The translations under genes and the position numbers were made by a program. This document shows, in pieces, positions 575-21,564 of a DNA stretch of 43,395 nt; within the stretch, counting starts at the first letter, position 1, and every line of letters starts with the position of its first letter. The stretch comes from an uncultured Sulfurovum sp. GTDB taxonomy: Bacteria; Campylobacterota; Campylobacteria; Campylobacterales; Sulfurovaceae. Below the pieces are notes generated by a model. The model was given only the letters and a program-made list of their open reading frames with translations. It did not search any database and was not told where the DNA came from. Where the stretch lies: NCBI GenBank assembly GCA_902727895.1, contig CACVAP010000022.1:1-43395 (forward strand), given 5' to 3'.

Positions 575-826
575 TCTTTCTCCTTATTTTTACATTAAGA
601 TTTTGTTATGTAACGATTATATCAAATTTAATACAACTTTCATATTACATATTGTATATTTTTTATACAATATAAACTTAAAAATACATAAAATATATAT
701 TATTATTGTCTATAATTTAATACTATAATATTAATTTATATTTATAATATATCTATTAAACTGATTAACGTTAGATTAATTGACAATATGATACAAAACA
801 ATAACAAGGATGAAAGAGGCTTATCA

Positions 827-2824
827 ATGCAAGTAAAATCAGTATGTGGCTACTGTGGTGTGGGATGTGGTATTCAGTTTAATGCACAACAACTCATTGG
901 AGATATTAGCTACCCTATCAATGAAGGGAGCCTTTGTTCAAAAGGCGTTTCTGAATTGGTGAGCATTCAAACCGAAACTCGACTTTTACGTCCTGTGATG
1001 CGAAATTATATTAGTGAAACCTATACCGTTAGCTCTTGGAAAGAGAGCATCGATAAAATTGCAAAAGCCCTTAGACAAGCACCCAAAGAAAAAATAGGCT
1101 TTTACCTTTCAGGACAGCTCCTCACCGAAGATTATTATGTTGCTAATAAATTAGGCAAAGGTTTTATTGGGACAAATAATGTGGACAGCAATAGCCGAAC
1201 CTGTATGGCAAGTGCTGTCACTGCTCACAGTAAAGCCTTTGGCATTGACTATGTTCCCGTGCGTATGCATGATGTTCAACATGCCGACTTACTTATTTTG
1301 GTTGGGGCAAATACAGCTGAGGCCCATGTGGTCTTTCACAATCAAATCATTAAAGCCAAAAAAAGAGGATTAAAAGTCATTGTCATTGACCCCCGTTTTA
1401 CCGACACGGCTAAGATTGCTGATTTACATTTACCTCTCAAAGTTGGTAGTGACATTGACTTTTTTAATTTACTCGCCTCCTATATTATTGATGAAGACCT
1501 CGTTGACCATGCATTCATAGAGTCATCGGTCAATAACTTTAAGCTTTTAAAAAATAAGTTCAAACGCATTCCCAAAACCAAAATGCTTAAACGCACAGGC
1601 TTAAGTAAAGCACAATTTCAAGCGTTTTGGGAGCTTTTTAAGTCACAAGAAAACATCATTTCAGCATGGACAATGGGACTAAACCAATCCACACAAGGCG
1701 TTGACAAAAACCTCTCACTCATTAACATTCACCTACTCACAGGTAAAATCTTTAAAAAAGGCAATGGACCCTTCAGCCTCACTGGACAACCCAATGCCAT
1801 GGGAGGACGTGAAGTGGGTGGACTCTCTACCATGTTGGCTGTGCATTATGGGTTTGACAAAAAATCCATTAAAAAAGTTTCAAAGTTTTGGCAAACAGAT
1901 AAGATTAATCCTAACATAGGACTCACAGCCACAGAGATGATGCGTGCAAACTTAGACGTACTTATTATTTGTCATACCGATCCTGTTTATCATTTACCCA
2001 ACCGTCATCAAACCGAAGCACTGATTCAAAAAATTCCTTTAGTCGTGGAGATTAATGCTTATGACAACTCTGAAACCTCAGATTTCGCACATATTAAATT
2101 ACCAGCAGCCCCTTGGGGTGAAAAAGAAGGTACCCAAACCAATATGGATCGTGCCATTACCAAGCAAATGAAACTTACCCGTACTTCCATAGACTGTAAA
2201 CCTGATTGGGAGATTTTTCAACTCATTGCACGAGCTTTAGGCTATAAAAAAGCCTTTAACTTTCAAAACCCTCAAGAGATTTTTGAAGAGTTTCAAGCCA
2301 TGTGTCGCCTTAACCCTCATCTGGATATTTACAATGCAAACTATAAAACTTTAAATCAATCCCCCTTTGTATGGGGTGAAGCCATTCGCAAAGAGCGAAA
2401 ATTTTTTACCAAAAACCAAAAAGCAAACCTACACTTTGTAGAGAACCGTCTCATTAGCGAAAAGACTTCTTTGGAGTACCCTTTTATTTTGTTAACAGGA
2501 CGCACACGTGATCAATGGCATTCAGGTACCAAAACAAATCTGCCAAAAACCCTTTTACACCATAAAAAACTTAATTTTTGTGAAATCCATCCCAACGATG
2601 CAAAGCGCTTAGAGCTAAGAACAGGTGATGCCATTAAAGTCATGTCCAAACAAGGTGAAATAATAAGTGAAGTTTTAATTACGGAAAGTATTCGTGAAAA
2701 GACACTGTTTATACCCTTAAGTCATCGAAAAATAAACTATTTAACCAACAGTTTACTCGATAGTGAGTCCATGGAACCCGACTACAATCACACCCCTGTG
2801 CGAATAGAAAAAGTCAAACCCTAG
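827..2824 (+). CDS. NasA/NarB-like molybdopterin nitrate reductase, short form
   Basis: The 665-residue protein belongs to the molybdopterin oxidoreductase family of assimilatory nitrate reductases. An N-terminal [4Fe-4S] motif is formed by C7, C10, C14 and C37 (VCGYCGVGCG and LCSKG). The likely molybdenum ligand is C126 in RTCMASAV. The C-terminal dinucleotide-binding domain carries TGRTRDQWHSGTKT. There is no twin-arginine signal, so the enzyme is probably cytoplasmic. I chose ATG 827 because an AGAGG site precedes it at good spacing; an in-frame ATG at 788 has no ribosome site. It is divergent from the NrtA-like gene across about 250 AT-rich bases that should hold both promoters. It is about 100 residues shorter than its paralogue at 9795. 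Nitrate as substrate is inferred from family and context. Confidence 0.85.
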   Translation: MQVKSVCGYCGVGCGIQFNAQQLIGDISYPINEGSLCSKGVSELVSIQTETRLLRPVMRNYISETYTVSSWKESIDKIAKALRQAPKEKIGFYLSGQLLTEDYYVANKLGKGFIGTNNVDSNSRTCMASAVTAHSKAFGIDYVPVRMHDVQHADLLILVGANTAEAHVVFHNQIIKAKKRGLKVIVIDPRFTDTAKIADLHLPLKVGSDIDFFNLLASYIIDEDLVDHAFIESSVNNFKLLKNKFKRIPKTKMLKRTGLSKAQFQAFWELFKSQENIISAWTMGLNQSTQGVDKNLSLINIHLLTGKIFKKGNGPFSLTGQPNAMGGREVGGLSTMLAVHYGFDKKSIKKVSKFWQTDKINPNIGLTATEMMRANLDVLIICHTDPVYHLPNRHQTEALIQKIPLVVEINAYDNSETSDFAHIKLPAAPWGEKEGTQTNMDRAITKQMKLTRTSIDCKPDWEIFQLIARALGYKKAFNFQNPQEIFEEFQAMCRLNPHLDIYNANYKTLNQSPFVWGEAIRKERKFFTKNQKANLHFVENRLISEKTSLEYPFILLTGRTRDQWHSGTKTNLPKTLLHHKKLNFCEIHPNDAKRLELRTGDAIKVMSKQGEIISEVLITESIREKTLFIPLSHRKINYLTNSLLDSESMEPDYNHTPVRIEKVKP

Positions 2825-2827
2825 ACC

Positions 2828-2853
2828 AATAAGGTGAAAAGCTTCACCTTATT
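2828..2853. terminator. Convergent hairpin between nitrate reductase and NarK gene
   Basis: A perfect 11-bp inverted repeat (AATAAGGTGAA and its complement) encloses a 4-base AAGC loop. It lies just after the stop of the rightward reductase gene and beyond the end of the leftward transporter gene, so it could end transcription in both directions. It has A/T flanks but no long T run. Confidence 0.65.
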
Positions 2854-2879
2854 TAACGCTAACAGAAAAAAGAATCCCC

Positions 2880-4160
2880 TTAGATTCTCCCCCCTGCTTG
2901 AACTCCCCAAGTAGTTCTCCATCGTGTTTTAACTTTAGAAAGACCAGCTAAAGCAATAACAACAACAGCTGCAAAAATTAAGAATCCTGCTGTATATCCA
3001 TCAAATACACCTTTTGACCAACCAAGAGTTTGAATGAGTGCCGTACCACCAAGACCACCAGCAGCCCCAACAATTCCTGTCATGATTCCAATATCTTTAC
3101 CAAAACGTTGTGGAACCAGTTGGAAGACAGCACCATTTGCCATACCAAGGTTTGCCATGATTAAGAAAAGAACAAAGATTGCTAAGAAGAACGGTAATTC
3201 AATCGTTGCTGTAATAATCACCATAAGTGCCACCATTCCATAGAAAAAGTAAAGTGCTTTAATTCCACCGATTCTATCAGCTATGCTTCCACCAAATGGA
3301 CGTAAAATAGCTCCAGCAAAAATACACAATGCCCCAAAGTAACCAGCAACAACTTTAACATTTGGCTCATCCAACACATCTAATCCAAAGGCTTCCATAT
3401 CTACACTGTAGGTATTCATAAGATAAACTTTCATGTACCCTGCAAAACCAACAAATCCACCAAAACTAATGGCATAGAAAAGGTTGAACCACCATGTATC
3501 TTTGTCTTTAAGTAGTTTTCCATAATCTTTTAACTTTTTAGGACGTGCTGTATAAACAGATGAAGGAGCATCTTTTGCTAAAAATAAATAAGCCACAAAA
3601 GTAATAATCGCCATAACAGCTCCTACTAAGAATACAGCTTCCCAACCCCAAATTTCTGCAATTTTTGGCGCAAAAAGGAAATCAATAACAACCCCAATGT
3701 TACCAGCACCAGCAATACCAAGAACAATTCCTTGTAGTTTTGGTGGATACCATTGACCAGCTTGTGGAAGGGCTACAGCAAATGAAGCTCCAGCAAATCC
3801 AAGTCCAAGTGCAACAATAAGAAGTTGATTATAGGTAATGGTACTACCTAAAGTATATGCCATTAATAAAGCAGCAATAACCACTAACTGTGAAACTAAA
3901 GCTGTTTTCTTTGGTCCAAATTTATCAACACTAAATCCTAGTAAAATTCTAAGAATTGCTCCAGATAAAATAGGAAGAGAAAGTAAGGTTGCTTTCTCAC
4001 CAGCTGTCATTAGGTGTCCAGTTAACGCCAACGCTTCAGAAATCTCAGTACTCAATGGTCCTAACATTGTCCATACCATGAAACTCATGTCAAAATAGAG
4101 AAACGCCATGAACAAGGTCATTCCATTCCCCTGTCCTTTTAATGCTTTAAATCCTGCCAT
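2880..4160 (-). CDS. NarK/NasA-type nitrate/nitrite transporter (MFS)
   Basis: This 426-residue protein has about twelve hydrophobic segments and matches the nitrate/nitrite porter branch of the major facilitator superfamily. Two glycine-rich nitrate signatures are visible: GIAGAGNIG near residue 150 and GIVGAAGGLGGTAL near residue 365. It would move nitrate into, or nitrite across, the inner membrane. The start at 4160 has an AGGAG site. It is convergent with the first nitrate reductase and divergent from the nitrite reductase at 4379, so it shares a regulatory region with the latter. With the NrtA-like protein at the window edge, the organism seems to have two nitrate uptake routes. Confidence 0.92.
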   Translation of the reverse strand: MAGFKALKGQGNGMTLFMAFLYFDMSFMVWTMLGPLSTEISEALALTGHLMTAGEKATLLSLPILSGAILRILLGFSVDKFGPKKTALVSQLVVIAALLMAYTLGSTITYNQLLIVALGLGFAGASFAVALPQAGQWYPPKLQGIVLGIAGAGNIGVVIDFLFAPKIAEIWGWEAVFLVGAVMAIITFVAYLFLAKDAPSSVYTARPKKLKDYGKLLKDKDTWWFNLFYAISFGGFVGFAGYMKVYLMNTYSVDMEAFGLDVLDEPNVKVVAGYFGALCIFAGAILRPFGGSIADRIGGIKALYFFYGMVALMVIITATIELPFFLAIFVLFLIMANLGMANGAVFQLVPQRFGKDIGIMTGIVGAAGGLGGTALIQTLGWSKGVFDGYTAGFLIFAAVVVIALAGLSKVKTRWRTTWGVQAGGRI

Positions 4161-4311
4161 ACTAACTCCTGTTTAGTTTAAGTTATAAGAATAATAACAT
4201 CTATCAGCTACTAATTGATCTTTTAATTGTTTATTTTTTAACCAAATTTTTCTTATTTTTACATATAATTTACTCATATATAGGGAAATGTTTAATTATT
4301 ATACATATTTT

Positions 4312-4342
4312 TTGAAATATATTCTTAATATTACATTATAAT
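4312..4342 (+). promoter_or_regulatory. Candidate sigma-70 promoter for nitrite reductase gene
   Basis: TTGAAA at 4312-4317 and TATAAT at 4337-4342 are 19 bases apart, a slightly long spacing, and lie 37 bases before the start codon. The 218-base gap between the divergent NarK and NirA genes is otherwise very AT-rich. I could not identify a regulator site with confidence. Confidence 0.4.
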
Positions 4343-4378
4343 TCCTTATTAACCAAAATTCATCTATAAAGGTCTTGT

Positions 4379-6298
4379 ATGAGCATTTTAGAAACAGCAT
4401 TTAACAACCGAAATAAGAAACAAAACAAAGTAGAAGCTACTAAAATTCTCAAGTTACCAATGGAAGTACATGCACAGCTTGAAAACGTTGCAGCAGCTGG
4501 GTATGAAGGGTTAGCAAAAGAAGATTCTACTTACTTCTTAAAATGTTTTGGGCTTTTTGATAAAGGTGAAGACTTTATGCTCAGGGTACGTGTTCCCATT
4601 GGTCAACTAAGCTATGAACAAGCTGTTTGCATTGGAGAGGTGGCTAAAAAGTATGGAGATGACTACATAGACCTTACAACACGGATGCAAATAGAACTAC
4701 GTTATATAAAAATAGAAGACATTGCTAAAGTATTGGCAAAGCTTCAAGAAGTTGGTCTTTCTACTTTTCAAACGGGGGTAGATAACCCTCGTAACATTGT
4801 GGCTGACCCATTAGAGGGCTTGGCTTTTGACAATATTATAGATGTTACGCCCATAGTAAATGAACTTCAATCCTTGGTCATAGAAAACACCGAATGGATT
4901 TCTGCTTTACCTCGTAAATTTAACACAGGTATTTTAGGTTCACTGTCTAACTCTTGTAACATCTTTGGGCATGACTGCTGTTTTGCCTTGGCTAACAAAG
5001 ATGGTGAGTTTGGATTTAACATTTACCTTGGTGCAAGAGTAGGCATACAATCTAAAGATGCCAATACCTTTGTAAGTGTAGAAGAAGTACCTGCCTTTTT
5101 TATGGCACTGTTAGAGACCTTTAAAACCTTTGGTTACCGAGACAATCGTAACAAAAACCGTTTACACTTTTTACTAAAAGACGTTGGACTAGAAGCCTTT
5201 CTCGATGAAGTTAAGAAAAGAGCAGGAAAAGAGTTTACAACAGCTGGTCAAACCTTAGTACAGTCTCAAAGCATTGCCTTAGGTGCAAACAAAGTTTTAC
5301 AACGTAATGGAAAGTATGCACATAAAATCGTTATTCCTTCTGGTATATTCTCTGGAACTGACCTCATAGACTTAGCCCAAAGTGCCAATAGTTTTGGTTC
5401 AGGTGATTTACGGTTAACCTATGACCAAAACATCTATGTGGTGAATGTTCCAAAGTCTAATTTAGCTGATTTTGAAGCAACAACTATTTTTAAAAAATAC
5501 AATGAATTCAATAACATCTACTTCAACGACATGATAGCCTGTGCAGGAACAAAAACTTGTAGCTTTGGGGTTATACCCAACAAACCAGATGCCATAGAGA
5601 TGGCAAACTTTTTAAAATCAGAAGTTGCCATTGAAAATGGAATGGTACGTATGAACTGGTCAGCCTGTCCAAAAGGTTGTGGCGTTCATGGCATAGCAGA
5701 CATTGGTTTTGAAGGATGTAAAGCCAAAGATGACGAAGGAAACAGAGTAGATGGCGTACACATCTTCATGGGTGGGAAAATCACCAGAACAGCCTTAGAA
5801 GCTAGACTATTACATAAAACCCTACCCATTACCGAAGCGAAATACCATGTAAAATATCTCTTAGAAGTCTATGCCGAGTTCAAAGAAAGAGGAGAAACTT
5901 TTGAGACTTTTGAAAACAGATACCTTTCTGCTAACTACTCCTACCAAGCCTTGGCTTTTTACACTAAAATCAATTATATTTTAAATGAAAAACTGGGCTT
6001 AGATGTAAAACTAAAACTTGACAAAGAAGTAAAGACGTATAAAAAAGAAAATTTAGAGATATTTGATTTTGGACTAAAACTTTTTAAACTCTTAACTAAT
6101 GAAAAACGTTACGTAGCCGTAGAAGATGCTGAACCTGTTTTAGTACAAGCACGTAAGATTAAACGTGATGAAGTTACTAGCCTAAACCCTAAAGTTCCTA
6201 GTAAATTGAGCGAAGTAATTTATATGATGACCGACAATGACAAGAAAACACGAGCTGCTGTTTTTTCTGAGTTGATTATGGCTCTAAAAGGACTCTAG
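4379..6298 (+). CDS. nirA: NirA-type sirohaem nitrite reductase with C-terminal extension
   Basis: The enzyme would reduce nitrite to ammonium by six electrons in the cytoplasm, using sirohaem and a [4Fe-4S] cluster. The cofactor-binding cysteines are C388 and C394 (CAGTKTC) and C430 and C434 (CPKGC), the normal pattern of nitrite/sulfite reductases. Upstream half-domain motifs include TRMQIELRY and GVDNPRNI. The protein has 639 residues, whereas ferredoxin-type nitrite reductases usually have about 510-560. Roughly the last 110 residues (from about 530, rich in Lys, Leu and Glu) match no domain I recognise. An AAAGG site precedes ATG 4379. Sulfite is an alternative substrate, but nitrate genes surround it and a sirohaem synthase is at 12094. 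Confidence 0.88.
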   Translation: MSILETAFNNRNKKQNKVEATKILKLPMEVHAQLENVAAAGYEGLAKEDSTYFLKCFGLFDKGEDFMLRVRVPIGQLSYEQAVCIGEVAKKYGDDYIDLTTRMQIELRYIKIEDIAKVLAKLQEVGLSTFQTGVDNPRNIVADPLEGLAFDNIIDVTPIVNELQSLVIENTEWISALPRKFNTGILGSLSNSCNIFGHDCCFALANKDGEFGFNIYLGARVGIQSKDANTFVSVEEVPAFFMALLETFKTFGYRDNRNKNRLHFLLKDVGLEAFLDEVKKRAGKEFTTAGQTLVQSQSIALGANKVLQRNGKYAHKIVIPSGIFSGTDLIDLAQSANSFGSGDLRLTYDQNIYVVNVPKSNLADFEATTIFKKYNEFNNIYFNDMIACAGTKTCSFGVIPNKPDAIEMANFLKSEVAIENGMVRMNWSACPKGCGVHGIADIGFEGCKAKDDEGNRVDGVHIFMGGKITRTALEARLLHKTLPITEAKYHVKYLLEVYAEFKERGETFETFENRYLSANYSYQALAFYTKINYILNEKLGLDVKLKLDKEVKTYKKENLEIFDFGLKLFKLLTNEKRYVAVEDAEPVLVQARKIKRDEVTSLNPKVPSKLSEVIYMMTDNDKKTRAAVFSELIMALKGL

Positions 6299-6384
6299 TT
6301 TTAGCTTGAGTTCACCCAAAATAATCATCTGTTAATCTAATTTTGTTAGAATCCCCATTCACAATATTTAAAAAAAGGATTAAC

Positions 6385-6870
6385 ATGAATCAACTCATTA
6401 AAAAAAGTATACTTTCAATAACACTAACATTTGGAGCTGTGGCACTTTTAGCACCACAAGCCGTACTGGCACACTGTCAAGTACCTTGTGGAATCTATGA
6501 TGATAGTGCCAGAGTAAATGCCATGATGGAAGACACAAAAACCGTAGGGAAAGCCACAAAAATTATCAATGAACTGGCTGGTAAAACCAATGCACAATCT
6601 CAAAACCAAATCGCTAGATGGGTTATGAACAAAGAGAAACATGCACAAAGTATTATTACGACTATTAGCGATTACTTCTTAACACAACGTGTAAAAAGTA
6701 GCCAAAAAGACTATACTGAACGTTTGGTAAAACACCATACAGTTATTGTTTCTGCTATGAAAGTTAAACAAAATGCCGATCAAAAACATGTAGATGCACT
6801 TCAAAAAAGTATTGAAGCTTTAGAAGTTTATTATAAACATGAAGAACATAAAGCGCATACAATTAAATAA
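6385..6870 (+). CDS. sodN: Exported nickel superoxide dismutase
   Basis: The start is ATG 6385, with an AAGGAT site; an upstream in-frame ATG at 6343 lacks one. The 161-residue precursor has a Sec signal (MNQLIKKS, then a hydrophobic core ending AVLA) followed directly by HCQVPCGIYDD. This matches the Ni-binding hook of Ni-SODs, HCxxPCGxY. In this family His1, Cys2 and Cys6 with the free N-terminus bind nickel, which requires exact removal of leader residues. Predicted signal peptidase cleavage after A29 would leave His1 as the new N-terminus and a mature protein of 132 residues, slightly longer than the roughly 117 of actinobacterial enzymes. The remainder looks helical, as expected. It would remove superoxide in the periplasm. 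No SodX-type protease gene is present in the window. Confidence 0.92.
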   Translation: MNQLIKKSILSITLTFGAVALLAPQAVLAHCQVPCGIYDDSARVNAMMEDTKTVGKATKIINELAGKTNAQSQNQIARWVMNKEKHAQSIITTISDYFLTQRVKSSQKDYTERLVKHHTVIVSAMKVKQNADQKHVDALQKSIEALEVYYKHEEHKAHTIK

Positions 6871-6881
6871 GCATTATTTAG

Positions 6882-6912
6882 TATCCTAGCATCATTAATG
6901 ATAGCTAGGATA
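6882..6912 (+). terminator. Hairpin after Ni-SOD gene
   Basis: Outer arms TATCCTAGC and GCTAGGATA (9 bp) enclose a second small palindrome, ATCATTAATGAT. The structure starts 12 bases after the Ni-SOD stop. It lacks a T tract, so it may be a terminator or an mRNA 3' stabiliser. Confidence 0.5.
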
Positions 6913-7030
6913 GGCGATCTCTTATAAACCTCTCTAATCATACTCCCACTGCCTAAAAATGATACAAAATACCCTACACTATTTGAACTCTTTCTATTAA
7001 AATAGCCTATTAAGAACATAAGGAAATGTG

Positions 7031-8620
7031 ATGGAAACAAACCCTACACCCCTAGATAGCTTTCTAAACCACAAAGCAGACACAGGAATGCAATGTGGAA
7101 ACTACAGCATCGATGTGCCAGAGCTAAAAGAGGGTGAACAGTTCCGTTTTCATTTTGATGCTACCGTTTGTGTGGGTTGTCACTGTTGTGAAACAGCTTG
7201 TAATGAACTCCAAAATAACCCAGCCGACATCAAATGGCGACGCGTGGGCGAAATGGAAGGGGGCATGTTTCCTGATGTTTCTCAACTCTTTAACTCTATG
7301 TCTTGTAACCATTGTATTGAGCCTGAATGTCTTACGGGTTGTCCGACCAATTCTTACATAAAGTTTGAAGAGACGGGGATTGTTTGGCATGATGATGACT
7401 CTTGTATTGGCTGTAATTACTGTACGTGGAATTGCCCTTATGAAGTGCCTATTTTTAACCCTGATCGAGGTATTGTCACCAAGTGTGATATGTGTCATGA
7501 TAAGTTAGCCGTGGGTGAAACTCCTGCTTGTGTACAAGCCTGTCCAGCAGGAGCCATTGAGATAGAAGCTGTACATAAAGAAGAGTGGATAAAAAATGAC
7601 ATGGCAAAAGAAGGAGTAGCTCCTCTTTTACCCGATGTCGATATCTGTAAACCAACCACACGTTATACCTTGCCTGAAAACATGCCTGACTTTAAACCAG
7701 CCGATGAACATATACTCAAACCAGCCCATGCTGAATTGCCTTTGGTCTTTATGACGGTACTTACCCAAGTCTCTTTAGGGGCATTTTTAGCCCTATTTTT
7801 AGGACAATTACTCTTTTCATTAGGTTTCAATTTACCCGAACCTACATTGGCTATGGCAATGGTTGCAGTTATTCCGTCAGCTGTTGGATTACCTCTTTCA
7901 GCCCTACACTTAGGTCGCCCTATCCTTGCTATGACAGCCATGAAAAACTGGCGTACTTCATGGTTGTCCCGTGAAGCCATCGCCTTAGGAGCATTTACAG
8001 GTTTAGCCTCATTAGTCGCCCTCATGTACTATCTTGATATCAAAGGTTTTACTTTGTTATTGGTAGAAGCCATCACTTTAGGCTTAGGTATCTTCGGAAT
8101 TTATGCTCAATCCATGATTTACCGTATCCGTGCCAGACCAGCATGGAACAGAGTTTCAACCACCAAAAGATTTTTTGGTTCAGGATACCTAGGCTTTACC
8201 CTCATCGCCCTTTTACTCCTAATATCTGGTGGCACGAATGGAGTAATGGTACTCTTAGCCGTAGCCCTTTTAGCAGGAATGGGTCAAGTTTTAGTTATTT
8301 ATGAAGAAGTACTTTTCTACCGTAACCTAGACAAAGAAGGAAGCTTATACTATCAATTTAACCGAAGTAGAATCTTACTCACAGAGCATTTTGGAAAACT
8401 GAAACAAGCACGTCTTTACTCTTTGTTAGTTTCGGCTTTGGCTTTACCATTGTTAGCCATTTTATTTACAGCTAGTGGATTAACTACCTTGGCTCTTTTT
8501 ACCTTGCTTGTTGCCATTATTGGGGGATTACTTTCTGAGTTGGCTGGACGCTATTTGTTTTATAGAACGGTTGTTCCTTTGGGATTAGCTGGGAACTTTT
8601 TTGCTGGGAATCAGAGGTAA
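7031..8620 (+). CDS. DmsB-DmsC fusion: four-cluster ferredoxin domain plus quinol-oxidising membrane anchor
   Basis: The 529-residue protein joins two normally separate subunits. Residues 1-180 hold four cysteine quartets for [4Fe-4S] clusters: C47/50/53/57, C92/95/100/104, C125/128/131/135 and C152/155/167/171, in the DmsB/NrfC pattern. From about residue 235 onward there are roughly eight hydrophobic helices resembling the DmsC anchor, including LPLSALHLGRP. DmsC-type anchors oxidise menaquinol. The fusion would pass electrons from the quinone pool to a soluble molybdenum reductase, here plausibly the NasA-like protein at 9795. There is no signal peptide before the cluster domain, which fits a cytoplasm-facing iron-sulfur part. 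ATG 7031 has an AAGGA site six bases upstream; GTG 7028 is possible. Confidence 0.88.
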   Translation: METNPTPLDSFLNHKADTGMQCGNYSIDVPELKEGEQFRFHFDATVCVGCHCCETACNELQNNPADIKWRRVGEMEGGMFPDVSQLFNSMSCNHCIEPECLTGCPTNSYIKFEETGIVWHDDDSCIGCNYCTWNCPYEVPIFNPDRGIVTKCDMCHDKLAVGETPACVQACPAGAIEIEAVHKEEWIKNDMAKEGVAPLLPDVDICKPTTRYTLPENMPDFKPADEHILKPAHAELPLVFMTVLTQVSLGAFLALFLGQLLFSLGFNLPEPTLAMAMVAVIPSAVGLPLSALHLGRPILAMTAMKNWRTSWLSREAIALGAFTGLASLVALMYYLDIKGFTLLLVEAITLGLGIFGIYAQSMIYRIRARPAWNRVSTTKRFFGSGYLGFTLIALLLLISGGTNGVMVLLAVALLAGMGQVLVIYEEVLFYRNLDKEGSLYYQFNRSRILLTEHFGKLKQARLYSLLVSALALPLLAILFTASGLTTLALFTLLVAIIGGLLSELAGRYLFYRTVVPLGLAGNFFAGNQR

Positions 8621-8674
8621 AGTATTATGAGGAATAACTCTTTAAATCTCAATATAATTGTAATATTAATCATA

Positions 8675-8698
8675 TTTGTGTTACACTTGTAATACAAA
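8675..8698 (+). promoter_or_regulatory. Candidate operator of the DinJ-YafQ module
   Basis: An inverted repeat with arms TTTGTGTTAC and GTAATACAAA (nine of ten positions paired, four-base spacer) lies just before the antitoxin ribosome site. Antitoxins of this family bind such repeats to repress their own operon. Confidence 0.45.
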
Positions 8699-8712
8699 TA
8701 AAGGAGTTATTC

Positions 8713-8958
8713 ATGAAAAATGCAATTATAAATGCTAGAATTGAATCAGACTTAAAAGTTGATGTTGAATCTATTTTAAAAAATCTAGGACTTAATGCTA
8801 CACAAGCCATTAATATGTTTTATCAGCAAATAAAATATCACAATGGAATCCCTTTTGAAATTAAAATTCCAAATGCAGAAACACAAAAAGTTATAGAAGA
8901 ATCACGAAAAGGCATTAATGTCGAAGATTTTTCTTTTGATGAGTTAAAAGATAAATGA
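8713..8958 (+). CDS. dinJ: RelB/DinJ-family antitoxin
   Basis: This 81-residue protein has the ribbon-helix-helix N-terminus of RelB/DinJ antitoxins (NARIESDLKVDVESILKNLG followed by LNATQAINMFYQQI) and an acidic C-terminal tail that would wrap the toxin. It should bind DNA as a dimer and neutralise the YafQ-like toxin encoded next to it, whose start overlaps the antitoxin stop by four bases. A strong AAGGAG site precedes the start. The module lies between the DmsBC fusion and the second nitrate reductase and has no link to nitrate chemistry, so it looks inserted. Confidence 0.9.
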   Translation: MKNAIINARIESDLKVDVESILKNLGLNATQAINMFYQQIKYHNGIPFEIKIPNAETQKVIEESRKGINVEDFSFDELKDK

Positions 8959-9221
8959 GAATTAAACGACATAAAAAGTTCTTAAAGGATTTCAGAGACA
9001 TCAAACTTAGTGATAGTCAATTTGAAAAGTTTGTTTATGATATCAATTCATTAAGAGAAGACACAAAACTACCTCCTGAATCTAAAGACCATGCTTTAAG
9101 TGGTAACTATAAAGATTGTCGTGAGTTTCATTTAGGGGGAGATATGTTAATCATTTATATTGAAAGTGCTGTAGACGAAATTATTTTGATGCGTATTGGT
9201 ACGCATTCACAGTTATTTTAA
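8955..9221 (+). CDS. yafQ: YafQ-family mRNA interferase toxin
   Basis: This 88-residue basic protein of the RelE/YafQ fold would cleave mRNA on the ribosome. Family motifs include DHALSGNYKDCREFHLGGD, LIIY and the ending RIGTHSQLF, which contains the conserved histidine near the C-terminus. Length and active-site region are complete, so the toxin is probably functional. ATG 8955 overlaps the antitoxin stop (ATGA), indicating translational coupling in an antitoxin-first operon. Confidence 0.9.
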   Translation: MRIKRHKKFLKDFRDIKLSDSQFEKFVYDINSLREDTKLPPESKDHALSGNYKDCREFHLGGDMLIIYIESAVDEIILMRIGTHSQLF

Positions 9222-9247
9222 TTTTTGCTTCTTTCTTATGAAGATAA

Positions 9248-9739
9248 ATAAATTCAGCTTTTTGTTTATATTATAAATTAACAATTGAAGAAGGATTTAT
9301 TTTAGGGGCTTTAAATGGTGGGCAAAACAAAGCAACAGTTGAACAGTTAGTTATTGCTTTACCTCTTTTAAACAATAGGAAAGAAGCTTTACTAAAAAAA
9401 CTTAATAAACTAAAAGAAAAAGGAATAGTTTCTTTTATTGAATATACAGATGAGGAAGTATATCAAAAACTAAAGAAAGGTACCTATCCAACTGAAGCTT
9501 GCCAATTTTGTGGACTTGATGATATTATTTTACATAAACATCATTATCCTATTAGAAGAAAGGATGAGGGAACACTTGTAATTAATTTATGTCCTAATTG
9601 TCATACAAGGTTTCATATGATGGCAGACTATGATAAACAATATGTATTTAATTCTAACTATAAAAAAAGTGGAAATATTCAGAAGAAGAATGGTATGAAA
9701 AAATGGAATAATTGCCCAAAAATCATACAAGTAAACTAA
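9248..9739 (+). pseudogene. HNH-like zinc-binding protein remnant without a start codon
   Basis: An open frame of about 163 codons runs from the stop at 9245 to the stop at 9737-9739 but has no ATG, GTG or TTG start in its first two thirds. It encodes a helical N-terminal part (EEGFILGALNGGQNKATVEQ) and then a Cys/His region: CQFCG, HKHHYPIRR and LCPNCHTRFH. This pattern resembles HNH nuclease-like zinc modules. ATG 9238 opens a different frame (MKINKFSFLF) that would join this one after a one-base shift near 9270, so a frameshift or loss of the 5' end is likely. A non-standard start such as ATT cannot be excluded. It sits directly after the toxin gene. Confidence 0.55.
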
Positions 9740-9794
9740 ATAATAGTCCTAGTTTCTAACTATAATAACCTCATAATACGATTAAGAGGTTGAT

Positions 9795-12104
9795 ATGTTA
9801 AACAAAATAAAAAGTTTCCTCGGAACCAACATAAAAACAGATAAATATAAAAAAGCTGATGATGCTCTTTTTGGTAAAATCTCCAACTTCAAAACCCCAG
9901 ATGAGTGGGTACGAAGTACGTGTGGTTACTGTGGTGTGGGTTGTGGTCTGTACATTGGCGTGAAAGATGGACGACCTGTTTATACCAAAGGTGACCCTGC
10001 TCACCCTGTGAGTAAAGGAACACTCTGTCCAAAAGGAATCATGGAACATGAGATGGTCAACTCCTCTAACCGTATTCCTGAACCTCTGATTCGTAAAGAG
10101 GGAGAACTTCAAGCCGTCGAATGGGATGAAGCTTTTGAACACACAGCCAACAAGTTTAAAGCCATTCAAGAAAAGCATGGAAAAGAAGCTGTTGCGTGTA
10201 TCTCTACAGGACAGTTTTTAACCGAAGACTTTTACACCCTTGGTAAGTTTGTACAACTTGGACTTGAAACCAACAACTACGATGGAAACACGACGCTATG
10301 TATGGCTTCAGCTGTTATGGGTTACAAACAAACCTTTGGAAGTGATGGACCTCCAGCTTCGTATGAGGACTTTTCTCATGCTGATGTTATCATCCTTATT
10401 GGGGCAAACATTGCTGACAACCACCCTATTTTAAAACTGCACATTTCTAAAAACAAAAGCATTACAGGTAAAGAACCAACCATTATTGTGGTTGATCCAC
10501 GTTTTTCTAAAACAGCCAACATGGCAGATATTTTTGTGCCTCTGAAACCTCGTACTGACTTAGCACTCATCAACGGTTTATGTTACATCATCTTTGAGCA
10601 AGGTTGGGAAGATGAAACGTTTATTAAAGAGCGAACCACAGGGCATAGAGAGTTTAAAAAACACATTATGGCATCCTATCCTCCTCAAGAAGTATCCAAC
10701 ATTACGGGCATTGAGGTAAAAGAGTTATACCGTATTGCCAAGGTGTATGCCACAGCTGACAAAGCCATGTCAGCATGGACAATGGGGGTAAACCAAAGTA
10801 CCATGGGAACGGATACCGTTTCAGCCATTTGTAACTTAGCCCTTATTACAGGAAACCTTGGGAAAAAAGGGGCTGCTCCTTTCTCCATCACAGGGCAATG
10901 TAATGCCATGGGAACACGGGAGTTTGGGTTTACTTCATCCATTCCAGGTTACCGAAACTTTGCCTCAGACACCGACAGAGCCATCTTTGCAGACATTGTG
11001 GGTGTACCCACTGAACTGGTTCCGACCAAAAGAGGTTATGCTTATCCACAGATTATTGATGCCATTGACCGTGGGGAGATTAAAGCACTTTGGGTCACAG
11101 CCACCAATCCACTGGTCAGTTTCCCCGACCAAGAACGTCTGCGTAAAATCTTTGCGAAACTGGACATTTTGGTCGTACAAGATGCCTTTATGTCCGAAAC
11201 TGCCCAAATAGCTCATGTTATTTTTGCAGCAGCCACATGGTCAGAAAAAGAAGGAGTTTACACCAACTCCGAACGCCGTTGTAACTATGCGAAGAAAGCC
11301 GTTGAACCTTTGGGTAAGACCATGAGCGATGCCAACATTGTGATGGAGTTCTCCAAGCAGTTTGAAGGCAAATATGAACTGCTCTTTAAAAACTTTCACT
11401 CCAGCAAAGATATTTTTGATGAAATCAAAAAAGTCAGTGAAGGACAACTCTGTGACTACTCAGGAATGGACTATGAAAAAATAGAAGAACTCGGAGGCAT
11501 ACAATGGCCTTGTAATGAAGCCTACCCCGAAGGTAAAAAGCGTCTCTACACCGAAGGCTTTGAGTGTAAAACCCCCGATGGAAAAGCAAAACTGCTTCCT
11601 CTTGACTGGATGCCTCTAAGTGAACAGTATAACAACGACTTCCCAATGAACCTCAACACAGGACGAACAGTAGAGCAATGGCACACACGCACCAAAACCA
11701 AAAGCATTGCCCTACTGAACAATTTAGCCCCTGAAGCTTGGGTGGAACTCAACCCTAAAGATGCTGAAAAACTGCAAGTTAAAAGTGGTGACCGAATTAC
11801 CATGGGTTCAAAACGAGGGAAAGTTAAAGATATTGTGGTGAAAGTAACTGAAGTGGTTCGAGAAGGTGACTGTTTTGTTCCTTTTCACTTCTCGGAACAA
11901 CTTATTAACAACCTAACCATTGCTGAATTTGACCCAAAATCCTTTGAGCCAAACTTTAAACAGTGTGCTGTAAACATTTACAGTGAGGCTGTTCCAGAAG
12001 GTATCCAGCAAGCAGAAGTCAAAATTGCTGGTGCTTTAAAAGAGCCGATGGATGCCATAAGCTCTCATGAAACGATAAAAGAAAAAGAAGTTAATGAAAA
12101 ATAA
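9795..12104 (+). CDS. NasA/NarB-like molybdopterin nitrate reductase, long form
   Basis: The 769-residue catalytic subunit has an N-terminal [4Fe-4S] motif at C43, C46, C50 and C78 (TCGYCGVGCG and LCPKG), a probable molybdenum ligand C169 in TTLCMASAV, and the C-terminal binding motif TGRTVEQWHTRTKT. About 40 residues precede the cluster motif, and a charged tail of about 25 residues follows the last domain. There is no twin-arginine signal, so it should work in the cytoplasm and reduce nitrate to nitrite. An AAGAGG site precedes the start. The CysG-like gene overlaps its end by 11 bases. Electrons may come from the DmsBC fusion at 7031, an inference from the cluster. Confidence 0.88.
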   Translation: MLNKIKSFLGTNIKTDKYKKADDALFGKISNFKTPDEWVRSTCGYCGVGCGLYIGVKDGRPVYTKGDPAHPVSKGTLCPKGIMEHEMVNSSNRIPEPLIRKEGELQAVEWDEAFEHTANKFKAIQEKHGKEAVACISTGQFLTEDFYTLGKFVQLGLETNNYDGNTTLCMASAVMGYKQTFGSDGPPASYEDFSHADVIILIGANIADNHPILKLHISKNKSITGKEPTIIVVDPRFSKTANMADIFVPLKPRTDLALINGLCYIIFEQGWEDETFIKERTTGHREFKKHIMASYPPQEVSNITGIEVKELYRIAKVYATADKAMSAWTMGVNQSTMGTDTVSAICNLALITGNLGKKGAAPFSITGQCNAMGTREFGFTSSIPGYRNFASDTDRAIFADIVGVPTELVPTKRGYAYPQIIDAIDRGEIKALWVTATNPLVSFPDQERLRKIFAKLDILVVQDAFMSETAQIAHVIFAAATWSEKEGVYTNSERRCNYAKKAVEPLGKTMSDANIVMEFSKQFEGKYELLFKNFHSSKDIFDEIKKVSEGQLCDYSGMDYEKIEELGGIQWPCNEAYPEGKKRLYTEGFECKTPDGKAKLLPLDWMPLSEQYNNDFPMNLNTGRTVEQWHTRTKTKSIALLNNLAPEAWVELNPKDAEKLQVKSGDRITMGSKRGKVKDIVVKVTEVVREGDCFVPFHFSEQLINNLTIAEFDPKSFEPNFKQCAVNIYSEAVPEGIQQAEVKIAGALKEPMDAISSHETIKEKEVNEK

Positions 12105-13335
12105 TACCTTACCCATTCTACTGAAGAATCCCTCTATCCTTCTCATTGGAGGGGGAAACGTTGCCCTACAAAAAGCCCAAGTTTTACATGAAAATAACAT
12201 TGACTTTTGTATGGTTGCCGAGGTCTGTTTGGATGAAATCTTTTCACTCTGTTCCAACATCAGCGTAAAAGCTTTTGAACTTAGCGATGTTGAACAAAGC
12301 ATTGTCATAGATGCCACAGGAAACATGCACGTCACGGAACAACTTGTTGCCCTGAAAAAAGAGCGAAACATTCTTCTCAATGTAGTAGATGTTCCTCACT
12401 TATGTGACTTTTACTTTATGGCACTTACAAAAAATAGACCATTGCAAATAGCTGTTTCAAGTAATGGTGCAAGTCCTACAGCTGCTCAACATTTTCGAGA
12501 TGAGTGTGAAGCGTTAATTCCTGAGAATATTGATCAATATTTAGAAAAAAAACAAAAAGAGAGAAACAATAAAATGATAAATATTGAAAAGACAACCCAA
12601 GAGTTAAAACATTTAAATTCCAAAGTTTATTTGGTTGGTTGTGGTCTTGGTGACCCTGATTTACTGACGTTAAAAGCTTATAGAATCATCCAAGAAGCAG
12701 ATGTAGTTTTACACGACAACCTCATAAGCGATGAAATTATGGCACTTGTTCCAGAAGCAACAACCAAAGTCTATGTGGGAAAGAAAAAAGGACACCACTC
12801 AAAGTCACAACATGACATTCATGAGACCATTTTAGAGTACACAGCCAAAGGCTTAACCGTAGCCAGACTAAAATCGGGGGATCCTTTCATCTTTGGTCGT
12901 GGTGCTGAAGAGTTGTTATTTTTAAATGAACACAATATCCCTTGTGAAGTCATAGCAGGTATTTCATCTGCCATTGCTGCGCCTTTGGTTGCAGGTATTC
13001 CCATTACAGCCAGAGACTTTGCCTCATCATTTTCTGTGGTTTCACCTCACTCAAAAGGAAACAGTTTAAACCTAACATGGGTCGACCTTTTACACAAAGA
13101 AAACCATACGGTAGTTGTGCTTATGGGACTTAGCCGTATTCCTGAGATCTTAGAAGAAACAGCACGACAAAATGTGCCTAACAATATGCCTTGTGCCATT
13201 ATTTCCAATGCCAGTAGACCCAACCAAAAAATAGCTACTTGTACCTTAGATGGACTGGAAGAAGCCTCTAAAGGAATGGTGCGTCCTTCTATTTTGGTGT
13301 TTGGAAATGTGGTTAATGCTTTTTTGGAGGCTTAA
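12094..13335 (+). CDS. cysG: Compact CysG-like sirohaem synthase (dehydrogenase plus uroporphyrinogen-III methyltransferase)
   Basis: This 413-residue fusion would make sirohaem for the NirA enzyme. Residues 1-150 form a Met8/CysG dehydrogenase part with the NAD motif LIGGGNVA and the conserved NVVDVPHLCDF. From about 175 onward is the SUMT domain, with VGCGLGDPDLLTLKA and SGDPFIFGRGAEE for S-adenosylmethionine and substrate binding. E. coli CysG has about 457 residues. The missing length falls after SSNGASPTAAQHFRDE, where the helical dimerisation and chelatase region should be, so that part is reduced to about 30 residues. Its start overlaps the nitrate reductase stop, showing co-translation with that gene. 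Confidence 0.9.
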   Translation: MKNNTLPILLKNPSILLIGGGNVALQKAQVLHENNIDFCMVAEVCLDEIFSLCSNISVKAFELSDVEQSIVIDATGNMHVTEQLVALKKERNILLNVVDVPHLCDFYFMALTKNRPLQIAVSSNGASPTAAQHFRDECEALIPENIDQYLEKKQKERNNKMINIEKTTQELKHLNSKVYLVGCGLGDPDLLTLKAYRIIQEADVVLHDNLISDEIMALVPEATTKVYVGKKKGHHSKSQHDIHETILEYTAKGLTVARLKSGDPFIFGRGAEELLFLNEHNIPCEVIAGISSAIAAPLVAGIPITARDFASSFSVVSPHSKGNSLNLTWVDLLHKENHTVVVLMGLSRIPEILEETARQNVPNNMPCAIISNASRPNQKIATCTLDGLEEASKGMVRPSILVFGNVVNAFLEA

Positions 13336-20275: not shown

Positions 20276-20824
20276 TTATTTTTTATCGTCAGCTTTTTTC
20301 TCTTCAACTTTAGATTCCTCAGCCTTTTTATGGTCAGCATTATGATAAATACCACAACCAATCAATTGATTTTCACCAATTCCTTTTACAAATGAAGTTT
20401 TATCAGCGTCTTTTTCTGTAGCAGGATGTGTCCAAATATAATCAACCCAACCTTCACCATCAGCTTTTACTTTGGCAATAAAATCTGCAAAAAGTGTGTT
20501 TCCTGCGCTGTCTTTGTAGTCTAAAAGATTTTTACCTTTTAAAGGTTTTTTAGGATGTGCCATAATAACACCATCAAAATCATTGGCAAAAATATACATG
20601 TCACCAACAACCCATTTACTCTCTTTTTGGTTAAATTCTTCAACACATTTAGCCACACCAACTTTTTTACAATGTGCTACGCCTGCTTCAATATGTGCTT
20701 TTACTTCATCCATCTCTGCATCTGATGATTCAAATGACACGAAATCCATTTCTTCTTGTGAGAACCCAAATGACAATGTTGTACATAGTGCCATTAATGT
20801 GGCAAATTTAATAAAATTTTTCAA
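20276..20824 (-). CDS. Secreted single-Cache domain protein, copy 1
   Basis: This 182-residue protein starts at TTG 20824 behind AAGGAAT, has a signal peptide (FIKFATLMALCTTLSFG) and contains one Cache-type domain: GDMYIFANDFDGVIMAHPKK, LKGKNLLDYKD, EGWVDYIWTHP and GENQLIGCGIY. Such domains bind small ligands, normally outside the cell, but here no membrane helix or signalling domain follows. It may therefore be a free periplasmic ligand-binding protein. The tail is rich in Lys, Glu and Asp. It is a tandem duplicate of the gene at 21025. Compared with that copy it has an extra FSQEEMDFVSFESSD-like insertion after the signal peptide. Confidence 0.85.
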   Translation of the reverse strand: MKNFIKFATLMALCTTLSFGFSQEEMDFVSFESSDAEMDEVKAHIEAGVAHCKKVGVAKCVEEFNQKESKWVVGDMYIFANDFDGVIMAHPKKPLKGKNLLDYKDSAGNTLFADFIAKVKADGEGWVDYIWTHPATEKDADKTSFVKGIGENQLIGCGIYHNADHKKAEESKVEEKKADDKK

Positions 20825-21024: not shown

Positions 21025-21564
21025 TTATTTTTTATCGTCAGCTTTAGGTGCTTCAGTTTTGTTCTCATCAGCTTTAGGTGCTTCCGTTTTATTGTCATCA
21101 GCTTTTGTACCATCATTTTTATAGATACCACAACCAATAAGTTGATTTTCACCAATTCCTTTTACAAATGAAGTTTTATCAGCTTCTTTTTCTGTAGCAG
21201 GATGTGTCCATACGTAATCAACCCAACCTTCTTTATCAGCTTTTACTTTGGCAATAAAATCTGCAAAAAGTGTATTTCCAGCTTTGTCTTTGTATTCTAA
21301 AAGATTTTTACCTTTTAAATCTTTTTTAGGATGTGCTGTAATCACACCATCAAAGTCATTTGCAAAGATATACATGTCACCTTTAACCCATTTACTTTCT
21401 TTTTGGTTAAACTCTTCAACACATTTAGCCACACCAACTACTTTACAATGTGCCACACCTGCTTCAACATGTGCTTTTACTTCATCCATCTCTGCTTGTG
21501 TTGCCCCGAACGATAACGATGTACAAAGTGCAAGCAATGTACTAACTTTTATTAAATTTTTCAC
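21025..21564 (-). CDS. Secreted single-Cache domain protein, copy 2
   Basis: This 179-residue paralogue of the protein at 20276 begins at GTG 21564 behind AAGGAAA. It has a signal peptide (LIKVSTLLALCTSLSFG), then the same Cache domain: AHCKVVGVAKC, GDMYIFANDFDGVITAHPKK, GWVDYVWTHP and LIGCGIY. The two cysteines in HCKxVGVAKC and the later GCG cysteine are kept in both copies. Its C-terminus has a repeat of about ten residues (TEAPKADENK units) that copy 1 lacks. No membrane or signalling domain is attached. The role is unknown beyond probable periplasmic ligand binding. Confidence 0.85.
   Translation of the reverse strand: MKNLIKVSTLLALCTSLSFGATQAEMDEVKAHVEAGVAHCKVVGVAKCVEEFNQKESKWVKGDMYIFANDFDGVITAHPKKDLKGKNLLEYKDKAGNTLFADFIAKVKADKEGWVDYVWTHPATEKEADKTSFVKGIGENQLIGCGIYKNDGTKADDNKTEAPKADENKTEAPKADDKK

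Follow-up and report, generated by a model that had tools for sequence, protein, structure and literature searches.

Nickel superoxide dismutase (Ni-SOD, encoded by sodN) is usually described as a cytoplasmic, SodX-dependent enzyme. In the SodX-processed form known from Streptomyces coelicolor and marine cyanobacteria (TIGR02753 with TIGR02754), a four-helix bundle carries an N-terminal HCxxPCxxY hook, whose His1 must be freed by a peptidase. Its leader is short and non-hydrophobic and has Ala at position -1. Further features of its own are an adjacent sodX, Asp3 and Pro11. The cyanobacterial enzyme has been described as cytoplasmic, and according to a survey from 2021, NiSOD may be unusable for cyanobacteria that have sodN without sodX (PMC8346466).

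Exported Ni-SODs have already been noticed, since a paper from 2025 lists the signal peptide of a Planctomycete Ni-SOD in its Table 1 (PMC12537917). The protein from Roseiconus lacunae (WP_230780104.1) has the signal peptide MTRLLTATLALMFTASIASA and an N-terminal His, and very likely belongs to the same exported class as the protein described below. In the accessible parts of that paper, this signal peptide with an appended His serves purely as bait for N-terminal-His proteins, and no work on maturation, SodX-independence or distribution of the R. lacunae Ni-SOD is reported. The same parts describe LPMOs, CopC, DUF4198 proteins and anglerases, in which signal peptidase cleavage makes a His chelator, as is proposed here for the exported Ni-SOD (PMC12537917). 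These are different proteins with different metals, and the Ni-SOD hook adds two cysteines. Periplasmic Cu/Zn-SOD (SodC) shares the proposed superoxide removal outside the cytoplasm, but has an unrelated fold and metal. No account of SodX-free maturation, of a split into two Ni-SOD types or of its spread was found in the literature searched, with the main 2008 survey of sodN diversity lying outside the search.

The window, i.e. the whole stretch of DNA analyzed, comprises 43,395 nucleotides from an uncultured Sulfurovum sp. (assembly GCA_902727895.1, contig CACVAP010000022.1). It encodes a sodN of the exported type (6385-6870, plus strand; 161 aa). A ribosome-binding site, AAAGGA (6374..6379, plus strand), was read from the sequence 5 nt upstream of the ATG. 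In translation the precursor begins with MNQLIKKSILSITLTFGAVALLAPQAVLA and continues HCQVPCGIYDD, so that the junction reads MNQLIKKSILSITLTFGAVALLAPQAVLA/HCQVPCGIYDDSAR. Residues 1-29 (6385..6471, plus strand) were assigned to a signal peptide on the basis of the translation, the core hydropathy and the divergence of the leader among relatives. The mature Ni-SOD, residues 30-161 (132 aa; 6472..6867, plus strand), consists of the nickel hook and a four-helix bundle, as indicated by the Sod_Ni profile, AlphaFold2 and PDB matches. Translation and alignment place the hook HCQVPCGIY, with the ligands His1, Cys2 and Cys6, at 6472..6498 (plus strand). The protein matches Pfam Sod_Ni (PF09055) with 126.6 bits (1.1e-36; gathering cut-off 25). 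Against the NCBIfam sodN equivalog TIGR02753 it reaches 44.8 bits, below the cut-off of 90, and is therefore a divergent Ni-SOD and not of the SodX type. Modeled with AlphaFold2 (pLDDT 89.5), the mature part is a four-helix bundle whose N-terminal hook is loose. The top PDB matches of this model are NiSOD chains (1T6U / 1Q0D bundle; VIA-align Z 15.2, rmsd 2.2 over 111 residues), whereas the best non-SOD, unrelated bundles have Z values of at most 12.5. The gene product is thus a member of the Ni-SOD superfamily, with nickel binding and dismutation as predicted functions. The original prediction, a Ni-SOD with a Sec leader ending in AVLA and followed by HCQVPCGIY, was confirmed by the translation and the Sod_Ni match.

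The leader of the window protein carries the features of a substrate of Sec and signal peptidase I: two lysines near the N-terminus (n-region MNQLIKK), a hydrophobic core (S8-A23), and a c-region, PQAVLA, which ends in Val-Leu-Ala before the His. Its core has a KD10 hydropathy of 2.27 and a run of 17 residues free of D, E, K, R, H, N and Q, compared with a maximal KD10 of 1.58 and a longest such run of 10 residues in SodX-type leaders. Over all sequences the two KD10 ranges are disjoint, 1.76-3.92 for exported-type and -0.44 to 1.58 for SodX-type leaders. Export via Tat was rejected: the window protein has no twin Arg, and RR occurs within the first 15 residues of just three of 64 leaders. Lipoprotein processing was rejected as well. 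No lipobox spans the junction, because His precedes Cys2, and the pattern matched once among the 64 leaders with the start of the hook attached.

A home-made weight matrix for signal peptidase, built from 16 E. coli precursors, was weak (10/16 in leave-one-out assays) and performed poorly on the family; it ranked the Ala29-His30 bond second, after an implausible ALL/APQ site. The cleavage site was therefore judged by the (-3,-1) rule instead, with cuts at shifted positions as controls. In a profile survey of four phyla, 61 of 64 exported-type proteins follow the rule exactly at the His junction. At each of nine positions before the His the proportion was 16-34% of the 64, and at four positions after it zero. 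The members breaking the rule at -1 or -3 are L194, which has Pro at -1, L219 and L222. The latter two are exported-type Ni-SODs from Planctomycetota whose leaders end in SSSAPAGSASPDVSPR and SPALTTRAR, respectively, directly before HC. With extra residues and an Arg separating the apparent signal peptide from His1, they would need a second, Arg-directed trimming step. A pattern scan of named genomes yielded at least 554 relatives. Among the best 80 of these, the signal peptide is joined directly to His-Cys in all 80, and Ala, Ser or Gly occupies -1 in 79; this set is biased at -1, but not at -3, because one of the two scan patterns demanded Ala before His. Recurrence of the junction on this scale, and in the profile survey, is well beyond chance. 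The precursor layout was thus recovered in relatives, as the original prediction had suggested checking, though the oddity implied there did not hold, as the layout is common to a large clade in many phyla.

An uncleaved membrane anchor, from which the hook would never be freed, is an extremely improbable explanation of the hydrophobic leader. Some leaders do have long hydrophobic cores, as an anchor might. Yet an anchor would not need a conserved small residue at -1, and Ala, Ser or Gly is kept there before the His (61/64), while the leader itself diverges: among six relatives, its identity is 36%, against 78% in the mature part.

The preferred reading is that of an exported Ni-SOD. A cut by signal peptidase I between Ala29 and His30 very probably releases the enzyme and at the same time frees His1, with no need for SodX. 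The precursor would pass Sec unfolded, and signal peptidase I (LepB) would cut at the outer face of the inner membrane. This single cut would set free the enzyme in the periplasm and expose the amino group of His1. Nickel would then be bound by the amino group and side chain of His1, the backbone amide of Cys2, and the thiolates of Cys2 and Cys6. A point against this reading is that the exported Cys2 and Cys6 could form a disulfide in an oxidizing compartment. In the SodX-type enzyme, the leader is removed by SodX, a member of the S26 signal peptidase family, at a similar Ala-x-Ala/His site, probably in the cytosol. Both types would accordingly expose the same residue, each on its own side of the membrane and by peptidases that are related. 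In all 13 SodX-type leaders of the survey, residue -1 is Ala and residue -3 is Ala or Val, which fits SodX as a relative of signal peptidase that cuts the same type of bond. From sequence, we infer export, cleavage, periplasmic nickel loading and SOD activity of the window protein.

The genome holding the window (2.96 Mb, 105 contigs, 96% complete) encodes a second Ni-SOD on another contig (L001). It has a leader of nine residues, MFKLNEVKA, followed by HCDVPCGIYDP, and scores 161.5 bits as sodN (TIGR02753), i.e. it is of the standard type. A NicO-type nickel transporter gene is located upstream. Directly downstream, an S26-type peptidase of 92 residues is encoded (L001, 1959-2237). Its best NCBIfam match is the Ni-SOD maturation protease, with 39.1 bits, below the cut-off of 63.25. 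The absence of a nearby sodX, claimed from the window, is correct insofar as none lies near the exported-type gene in the window; the genome nevertheless possesses a sodX, beside the SodX-type sodN on L001. Neither an Fe/Mn-SOD nor a Cu/Zn-SOD was found in this incomplete assembly, and the SOD set of the genome thus appears to be all nickel. The two Ni-SODs appear to cover both compartments, with one predicted on each side of the inner membrane.

Since sodX is encoded in the same genome, SodX might also process the window precursor in the cytosol, the leader being a mere propeptide. The residues at -1 (Ala) and -3 (Ala or Val), shared with SodX-type leaders, would suit such processing. It is nonetheless highly improbable, as the hydrophobic leader of the window protein is a complete signal peptide and resembles that of no SodX substrate in the sample, and most genomes with the exported type have no SodX. 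Among 50 such genomes, 45 have a single Ni-SOD, with neither a SodX-type sodN nor sodX; nothing else speaks as strongly against maturation of the exported type by SodX. The other five have a SodX-type copy and a sodX, which adjoins that copy. The co-occurrence of SodX-type copy and sodX gives a Fisher p of 5e-7, for related and hence non-independent genomes, many of them draft assemblies. Exported-only genomes include the complete genome of Desulfosarcina alkanivorans and the isolates Desulfospira joergensenii, Ferrimonas futtsuensis, F. senticii, Neiella marina, Propionigenium maris and Cerasicoccus frondis. Weak SodX matches in four exported-only genomes (G547, G566, G567 and G561) were rejected; three are repressor-type proteins that combine a DNA-binding with an S24-like peptidase domain, and the fourth is a peptidase-like protein of another kind. 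Release of His1 by signal peptidase alone, as originally proposed, agrees with these comparative sequence data, namely the junction rule and the sodX-free genomes. A periplasmic location of the enzyme agrees with the hydrophobic leaders in 64/64 exported-type proteins, export as such being presumed.

The phylum samples were searched by Pfam profile to escape the bias of the pattern scan towards Ala before His. Ni-SOD was found in 18 of 247 genomes of Desulfobacterota, 6 of 349 of Pseudomonadota, 29 of 195 of Verrucomicrobiota and 30 of 149 of Planctomycetota. A hydrophobic leader is present in all 64 proteins whose residue 3 is Gln or Glu, and no sodX (0/64) occurs in the stretches fetched around their genes. 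These proteins also have Asp11 (64/64). The 14 proteins with Asp3 are of the SodX type, with Pro11 and a short leader, hydrophobic in none; sodX adjoins 13 of them, and the remaining one is situated at a contig end. A sodX immediately follows 24 SodX-type genes from Campylobacterota, Desulfobacterota and genomes with both types, and 12/13 SodX-type genes from the three other survey phyla, but no exported-type gene. Within the sampled phyla, the exported, SodX-free Ni-SOD frequently outnumbers the SodX type: it accounts for 17 of 18 Ni-SODs in Desulfobacterota, 25 of 25 with a readable hook in Verrucomicrobiota, and 20 of 29 in Planctomycetota. A tree separates the exported type (96 rows) from the SodX type (15 rows) by one long branch with a support of 100, many inner forks being unresolved. 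The best 80 of the at least 554 relatives belong to Campylobacterota, Pseudomonadota, Desulfobacterota, Verrucomicrobiota, Kiritimatiellota, Planctomycetota, Fusobacteriota, Acidobacteriota, Neomarinimicrobiota, Bdellovibrionota and others. The exported SodX-free Ni-SOD is a large, little-noticed class in many phyla. No viral contig encodes a relative, and carriage on a plasmid is confined to a single case, pILYOP01 of Ilyobacter polytropus.

In the same family (named relatives Sulfurovum), the exported type is present in 7 of 175 genomes, with one copy broken by a frameshift. All seven genomes also carry a SodX-type copy, and their exported-type signal peptides all end in Ala straight before HC. 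The frameshift, early in the mature part, occurs in Sulfurovum sp. isolate Faavne_M6_B9, in which the SodX-type copy is intact; it represents real decay or an assembly error.

The exported type differs from the SodX-processed enzyme in the signal peptide, the lack of sodX, Gln/Glu3 and Asp11, and the two share about 10-11% identity in a structural alignment. Across 98 exported-type and 24 SodX-type sequences, H1, C2, P5 and C6 do not vary. At position 3 the exported type has Q or E in 98/98 sequences (Gln in the window protein) and the SodX type D in 24/24, and at position 11 the exported type has D in 98/98 and the SodX type P in 24/24; residue 3 had served to define the two groups, which leaves position 11 and the leader type as the independent distinctions. 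Both types retain Arg39 and Lys44 throughout, Tyr62 is kept, and Tyr9 is present in 94/98 exported-type sequences. Glu17, Arg47 and Lys52 of S. coelicolor are replaced in the exported type.

These replacements, the differences at residues 3 and 11 in all members, and the missed sodN equivalog cut-off would suit an exported protein with a free His1 that is not a SOD. It might be a periplasmic nickel- or copper-binding protein, a chaperone or another redox protein on the Ni-SOD fold, and other secreted metal-binding proteins with an N-terminal His are described in the accessible parts of the 2025 paper (PMC12537917). Such a function is decidedly improbable. All metal ligands are kept, together with Pro5, Tyr9, Arg39, Lys44 and Tyr62, and Glu17 and Arg47 are mostly replaced in the SodX-type set as well. 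In 45/50 genomes the exported type is the sole PF09055 protein, and no SOD outside the nickel family was found in the genome of the window. It is rather unlikely, though conceivable, that the members of the exported clade form a chemically separate class of enzymes. The invariant changes near the hook, namely Gln/Glu3, Asp11, a His in place of Arg47 and the loss of Lys52, would then tune the enzyme for a periplasm that is oxidizing and nickel-scavenging; metal loading would follow a route of its own, and the metal or the reaction might differ from those of the cytosolic Ni-SOD.

If exported, SodX-free maturation is as widespread as proposed, the absence of sodX would not mean an inactive Ni-SOD, and many 'Ni-SOD' annotations would denote periplasmic enzymes. 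Nickel for SOD might then be acquired without entering the cytoplasm. As signal peptidase would supply the maturation step, an exported Ni-SOD might be made active in E. coli by simple export.

The window gene is located between a nirA-like gene for a ferredoxin-type nitrite/sulfite reductase (4379..6298, plus strand; Pfam NIR_SIR, NIR_SIR_ferr) and a gene for a fused 4Fe-4S / DmsC-like membrane anchor protein, DmsBC-like (7028..8620, plus strand; Pfam Fer4_11, DmsC). This place next to a quinol-linked gene had been considered unusual, but the neighborhood carries no functional signal. The nirA and DmsBC-like genes abut without sodN in six genomes of the same genus, so that the DmsBC-like gene is conserved where no sodN adjoins it, and the exported sodN of other relatives occupies unrelated genomic places. 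On these grounds, a functional link of the pair to sodN was rejected. The window sodN is best read as a lineage-specific single-gene insertion. In a seventh genome of the genus, a PIN-like toxin and antitoxin-like pair (L229, 542-1491) stands between nirA and the DmsBC-like gene, at the place taken by sodN in the window; this gap may be an insertion hot spot. The surrounding region of the window (788-13335) is an assimilatory nitrate-type cluster with genes for two molybdopterin oxidoreductases, an MFS transporter, the nirA-like reductase, the DmsBC-like protein and a siroheme synthase-like protein. Further downstream, two closely similar secreted proteins are encoded in tandem on the minus strand (20276-20824 and 21025-21564), probably the result of a recent duplication.
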